Positions 4,159 through 27,348 of a stretch of DNA of 64,000 nucleotides are shown in pieces. Location: positions 15,899,501 to 15,963,500 of the forward strand of contig NC_061781.1 in assembly GCF_022458985.1 (NCBI RefSeq). The letters run 5' to 3'. A program made the translations under genes and the position numbers. Each line of letters opens with the position of its first letter. Position 1 is the stretch's first letter. The DNA is from Mugil cephalus. Taxonomy: Eukaryota; Chordata; Actinopteri; Mugiliformes; Mugilidae. The notes under the pieces are model-generated. The model did no database searches, was not told the DNA's origin, and saw nothing but the letters and a program-made list of their open reading frames with translations.

Positions 4159-27348
<23,190 letters not shown>

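Follow-up and report, generated by a model that had tools for sequence, protein, structure and literature searches.

The question raised by this locus is whether the grey mullet Mugil cephalus, a percomorph fish, can make two FRMPD4 proteins with different C termini from one gene, by joining the same exon to either of two acceptors only 5 nucleotides (nt) apart. The window, namely the whole stretch of DNA that was analysed, comprises 64,000 nt of contig NC_061781.1 (assembly GCF_022458985.1, forward-strand positions 15,899,501 to 15,963,500); coordinates below refer to it, and all features described lie on its + strand. The window carries exons of FRMPD4, in agreement with the identity proposed in the initial annotation: the protein P0001 (Mugil cephalus FRMPD4 isoform X3) is identical to it at 100% over 435 compared residues, and residues 11–1666 of P0001 correspond to 10457–27345. 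Pfam found the PDZ (6.8e-8) and FERM_M (1.3e-18) domains of FRMPD4 in P0001. We propose, with a probability of about 80%, that the last intron of FRMPD4 is spliced to either of two 3' sites 5 nt apart that have a branch site and a pyrimidine tract in common.

Exon 16 (24098–25294), common to both forms, ends KIKETT plus one G; its 3' end reads AAA GAA ACC ACA G at 25294, and the donor is GTAAAA. The end of intron 16 and the start of the next exon read CTACTACCCCTAG, then TGTAG, then CTTGC, and the nucleotide arrangement read at this junction in the mullet window is CTAGTGTAG. Direct reading and a script both recovered the two acceptors that had been predicted 5 nt apart, with joins at 26133 and 26138. 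The proximal AG (26131–26132) opens the exon at 26133 and yields GTG TAG, as had been claimed, for a protein ending ETTV, a tail also seen in homologues. The distal AG (26136–26137) opens the exon at 26138 and yields GCT TGC, giving ETTACTQLKK..., and P0001 is identical across this junction. Intron 16 measures 838 nt to the proximal acceptor (25295–26132) and 843 nt, a multiple of 3, to the distal one. The single pyrimidine tract said to serve both acceptors was located at 26105–26130 (88% C+T, no AG within), and a branch-site candidate, TTAAC (26098–26102, with its A at 26101, a match to the yUnAy consensus only), lies 31 nt from the proximal acceptor and 36 nt from the distal one.

The two endings overlap in the DNA itself, because the distal acceptor AG doubles as the end of the short form's stop codon, TAG at 26135–26137. 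A mutation of this AG therefore affects both endings. Since only the AG is common to both, the T at 26135 can mutate alone, so that the stop is lost, the AG stays intact and the short frame is opened; the overlap thus couples the two endings only partly. Class I PDZ ligands have the pattern S/T-x-hydrophobic at the very C terminus, and the ETTV-stop produced by the proximal join fits it.

The long-form coding part of exon 17 (26138–27348) is open for 403 residues past ETT, close to the 400 given in the initial annotation, up to a TGA stop at 27346–27348, and its relatives range from sharks to a marsupial. Over the first 403 codons the alternative frames hold 25 and 18 stops, and none of 2000 mononucleotide shuffles stayed open over 402 codons. 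Residues 1–200 of the extension (26138–26736) are weakly conserved and predicted to be disordered, with a predicted local distance difference test score (pLDDT) below 50 for nearly all of them. Residues 237–402 (26845–27342) have a confident predicted fold, a talin-rod-like helical bundle whose sequence is conserved from cartilaginous fishes to the mullet; in the predicted model it has the five-helix rod fold of talin R11. The two differ in that alignment identity is 18–19% and FRMPD4 has one bundle after a linker. The mullet long form ends KNLS, with ETT internal.

Whether relatives have the two endings was assessed in 342 different proteins from three protein searches, in which 120 matches each were taken of 307, 652 and 246. 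This set is not random, as search 1 scored the extension and search 3 admitted only proteins of up to 1443 residues; it also holds repeated isoforms and close relatives, so that counts refer to proteins and not to species. Past ETT, 199 proteins were of the long type, 64 continued from ETT-G and 58 finished exactly in ETTV, the rest stopping at exon 16 (9), having no junction motif (7) or ending otherwise (5). Homologues set the long-type junction at ETT-A(C/F)T. Among the matches listed, long tails occurred in percomorphs, salmonids, gar, sturgeon, bichir, coelacanth, sharks and chimaera and, within tetrapods, in caecilians, turtles, a crocodile, birds and a marsupial, and ETTV endings in percomorphs, salmonids, herrings, carps, catfishes, bowfin, sturgeon, coelacanth, turtles and one bird. 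Both forms were found in Sebastes umbrosus, Acipenser ruthenus, Dermochelys coriacea and Channa argus, with 300 of 300 residues agreeing before the split, and the equal stated size of the contigs points to one gene for both forms in each of these four species. The comparison with other fishes suggested in the initial annotation was thus favourable at the protein level, and both tails have apparently been kept as proteins over the jawed vertebrates. As both recur in relatives, the tandem arrangement goes beyond chance. None of the protein names listed was recognisably human, and the human ending is taken from the available text of papers. In herrings, carps, characins and catfishes, only RETTV or exon-16-ending forms were seen among the matches listed, from a search that admitted proteins of up to 1443 residues; a loss of the long form in these groups is a lead only.

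The source lgn, presumably assembled from public sequencing reads, supplied four ETTV proteins, on contigs of 5784 nt (P0235), 3827 nt (P0257), 4925 nt (P0261) and 6015 nt (P0339) that we take to be spliced RNA. The P0257 contig has no room for introns, as it offers about 100 nt besides 1242 codons, and the other three are likely to be intron-free, since the gene spans more than 15 kb in the mullet.

Several observations weigh against the explanation proposed above. No spliced long form was seen among the lgn matches listed, so this RNA-like support concerns the short form only, and the evidence for the long form otherwise consists of gene models and conservation. The isoform names are gene-model output. 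Use of the same tandem site for the ETTV of relatives is deduced from proteins, and a separate exon could supply it. In the mullet, use of both sites is a prediction from the genome. The distal site is weak, scoring -0.3 against 3.4 for the proximal site and 2.5 and 7.7 for two other acceptors of the gene, on an approximate frequency matrix, and scanning for the first AG would prefer the proximal site. Nor is the distal join unique, as joins at 26105, 26165, 26168 and 26180 (AGs tested in 26101–26220) would also retain the long frame. As for the bundle, the Pfam family Talin_IBS2B matched eight of nine cut-out relatives below its cut-off; the best score obtained was 24.4 against 27 bits. It was absent from the mullet bundle, whose sole Pfam match was HAUS5 (E 0.0023, below cut-off). 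Full-length proteins matched Talin_IBS2B in two of five cases (P0202 and P0110), with none in P0174, P0222 and P0001. Because Talin_IBS2B scores under its curated cut-off, the bundle is graded here as R11-like and not as a talin family member.

The explanation that competes best with tandem splicing is that intron 16 was once retained as coding sequence, that is, as an exitron, which would be the main ancient alternative, the tandem acceptors being a by-product of intron removal. In 13 of the 342 proteins the reading runs through the acceptors (PSVAC in 10, PSVVC in 1 and SSLAC in 2), and the nine of them that were aligned (catshark P0219, reedfish P0118, bonytongues and eels) have conserved blocks over the stretch corresponding to the mullet intron, 95–259 residues long. 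In addition, the lgn contig P0114 (3307 nt) is open across intron 16, though it looks genomic, because it starts inside what is intron 15 in the mullet. The mullet itself keeps a relic of this coding stretch at 26070–26120, 17 residues in a frame shifted relative to the extension that align to ETKHVVREMLNDSLCFS of P0118. Scores of 200 mononucleotide shuffles peaked at 53 and those of 58 other 838-nt pieces of the window at 50, all short of the Smith–Waterman score of 58 for the relic; the match lies at the expected place, the margin over the top shuffle is thin and the shuffles preserve base content only. The Leu-Asn codons of the relic, CTT AAC, contain the branch-site candidate, so that peptide and splice signals overlap here. 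Neither this coding past nor the talin-like bundle had been remarked on in the initial annotation. Against these data, an exitron is open in frame with both flanks, whereas mullet intron 16 holds stops in this frame, which makes the retained form impossible in the mullet; moreover, several of the 13 proteins come from gene models for which no RNA support is stated, and P0051 and P0064 have only about 20 residues ahead of the acceptor peptide. Sequence comparison thus suggests an ancestral state in which the coding stretch was probably either kept or removed, with removal ending in two ways, and we regard retention as the main alternative to be possible but unlikely. Separately, P0129 (Scleropages) and P0131 (Arapaima) read SSLAC, while P0119, also from Scleropages, reads PSVAC; perhaps the SSLAC proteins represent a second gene copy with an altered junction.

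A second possibility is that only one acceptor matters and the other produces tandem-site splicing noise, a minor product without function. The weak score of the distal site would agree with this, and the available text of a paper on human tandem sites indicates that frame-shifting minor sites in coding sequence are usually suppressed by decay (PMC8055015). The same source, however, describes nearly half of the tissue-specific coding minor sites as frame-shifting (PMC8055015). At this junction, moreover, the early stop lies in the last exon, so that decay should spare the short mRNA, as the initial annotation had argued, and both products look conserved as proteins, the bundle from cartilaginous fishes to the mullet and ETTV in the 58 proteins counted above. 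Splicing noise therefore appears improbable, clearly more so than intron retention. That the long frame is 3' untranslated sequence and ETTV the sole product is very improbable, because 403 open codons, protein conservation to sharks and a confidently folded end speak against it, even if the available text of the mammalian Preso/FRMPD4 papers describes a C-terminal PDZ-binding motif (PMC10965980, PMC13060437).

The exon numbered 15 here (21656–22624) ends ACA G followed by GT, its frame continues into exon 16, and it matches P0001. Within exon 16, 24355–24465 (residues 409–445 of the joined 1124-amino-acid translation) correspond to the FRMPD4 peptide of the solved chains 4wnd/4wng (E 3.5e-9 to 4wnd_B, named FRMPD4), which we take to be the LGN-binding peptide. 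For the WW domain, P0001 had no Pfam match and P0174 a match below cut-off; this domain is listed for mammalian Preso/FRMPD4 in the part of the source available (PMC10965980). Downstream of FRMPD4, two long uninterrupted frames (29400–32591 and 34275–37382) carry leucine-rich repeats (LRR) and a TIR domain, and by order, content and synteny they are presumably TLR8 and TLR7. Five FRMPD4 proteins (P0105, P0237, P0251, P0258 and P0300) bear the label Toll-like receptor 7, and P0112 combines a portion of the extension with leucine-rich repeats; these are probably gene models fused over the boundary between FRMPD4 and the TLR genes. A further uninterrupted frame of the Ras family (62075–62689, Pfam Ras 2.3e-55) is by its sequence presumably Rab9-like.

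In the mechanism that we propose for tandem splicing, the spliceosome would pick one of two AGs, 31 or 36 nt from one branch point. If it picked the proximal AG, translation would run into GTG-TAG and stop after ETTV, a class I PDZ ligand. If it picked the distal one, the frame would shift and the protein would be longer by 403 residues, made up of a disordered linker followed by a C-terminal bundle resembling talin R11, with ETT buried inside the chain. The ratio between the acceptors may be under regulation. Mammalian Preso/FRMPD4 has a C-terminal PDZ-binding motif (PMC10965980, PMC13060437) and is reported to bind PSD-95 and act on it through this motif (PMC10965980), as far as the available text of these papers goes, and one of them places a hearing-loss variant ahead of this motif (PMC10965980 / PMC13060437). 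By analogy, the fish short form may bind PSD-95-type PDZ domains, and the long form may bind something through its bundle, perhaps adhesion-type partners. More tentatively, and with odds clearly below even, an ancient three-way choice between keeping the intron and using either acceptor could set the network of the protein, namely PDZ proteins via ETTV or adhesion-type partners via the R11-like bundle, which would give the long form both a FERM domain and a talin-like tail. Lineages would since have dropped options, the mullet the retained form and herrings, carps and catfishes perhaps the long form.

This arrangement can be compared with known systems, within the available text of the sources cited. 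Tandem alternative splice sites (TASS, of which NAGNAG is the 3-nt kind) likewise have two AGs a few bases apart (PMC8055015), and the FRMPD4 pair has a common tract and a branch-site candidate; it differs in that its 5-nt shift changes the frame in the last exon and both products are apparently kept across jawed vertebrates. The likeness to exitrons (PMC4484396) is that the intron 16 stretch is open in frame in the catshark, reedfish, eel and other models, whereas the mullet stretch has stops and yet the tandem acceptors persist. Mammalian FRMPD4/Preso shares the PDZ and FERM domains and, with the short form, the C-terminal PDZ ligand, but its accounts give the PDZ-ligand ending only, against two endings here (PMC10965980, PMC13060437). 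No description of this junction or of a talin-like FRMPD4 domain was found in the available text of the open-licence literature searched, including a paper on FRMPD4 and talin (PMC10830384). Tandem acceptors and exitrons are already known, and their combination here appears to be new within that literature.

In people, FRMPD4 has been associated with X-linked intellectual disability, according to the text available (PMC13060437). If the two endings proposed here are real, variants, antibodies and constructs interpreted for the short form alone would miss part of the output of FRMPD4, and the overlap of stop codon and splice site would provide a compact case in which the two can be separated by single-base changes.
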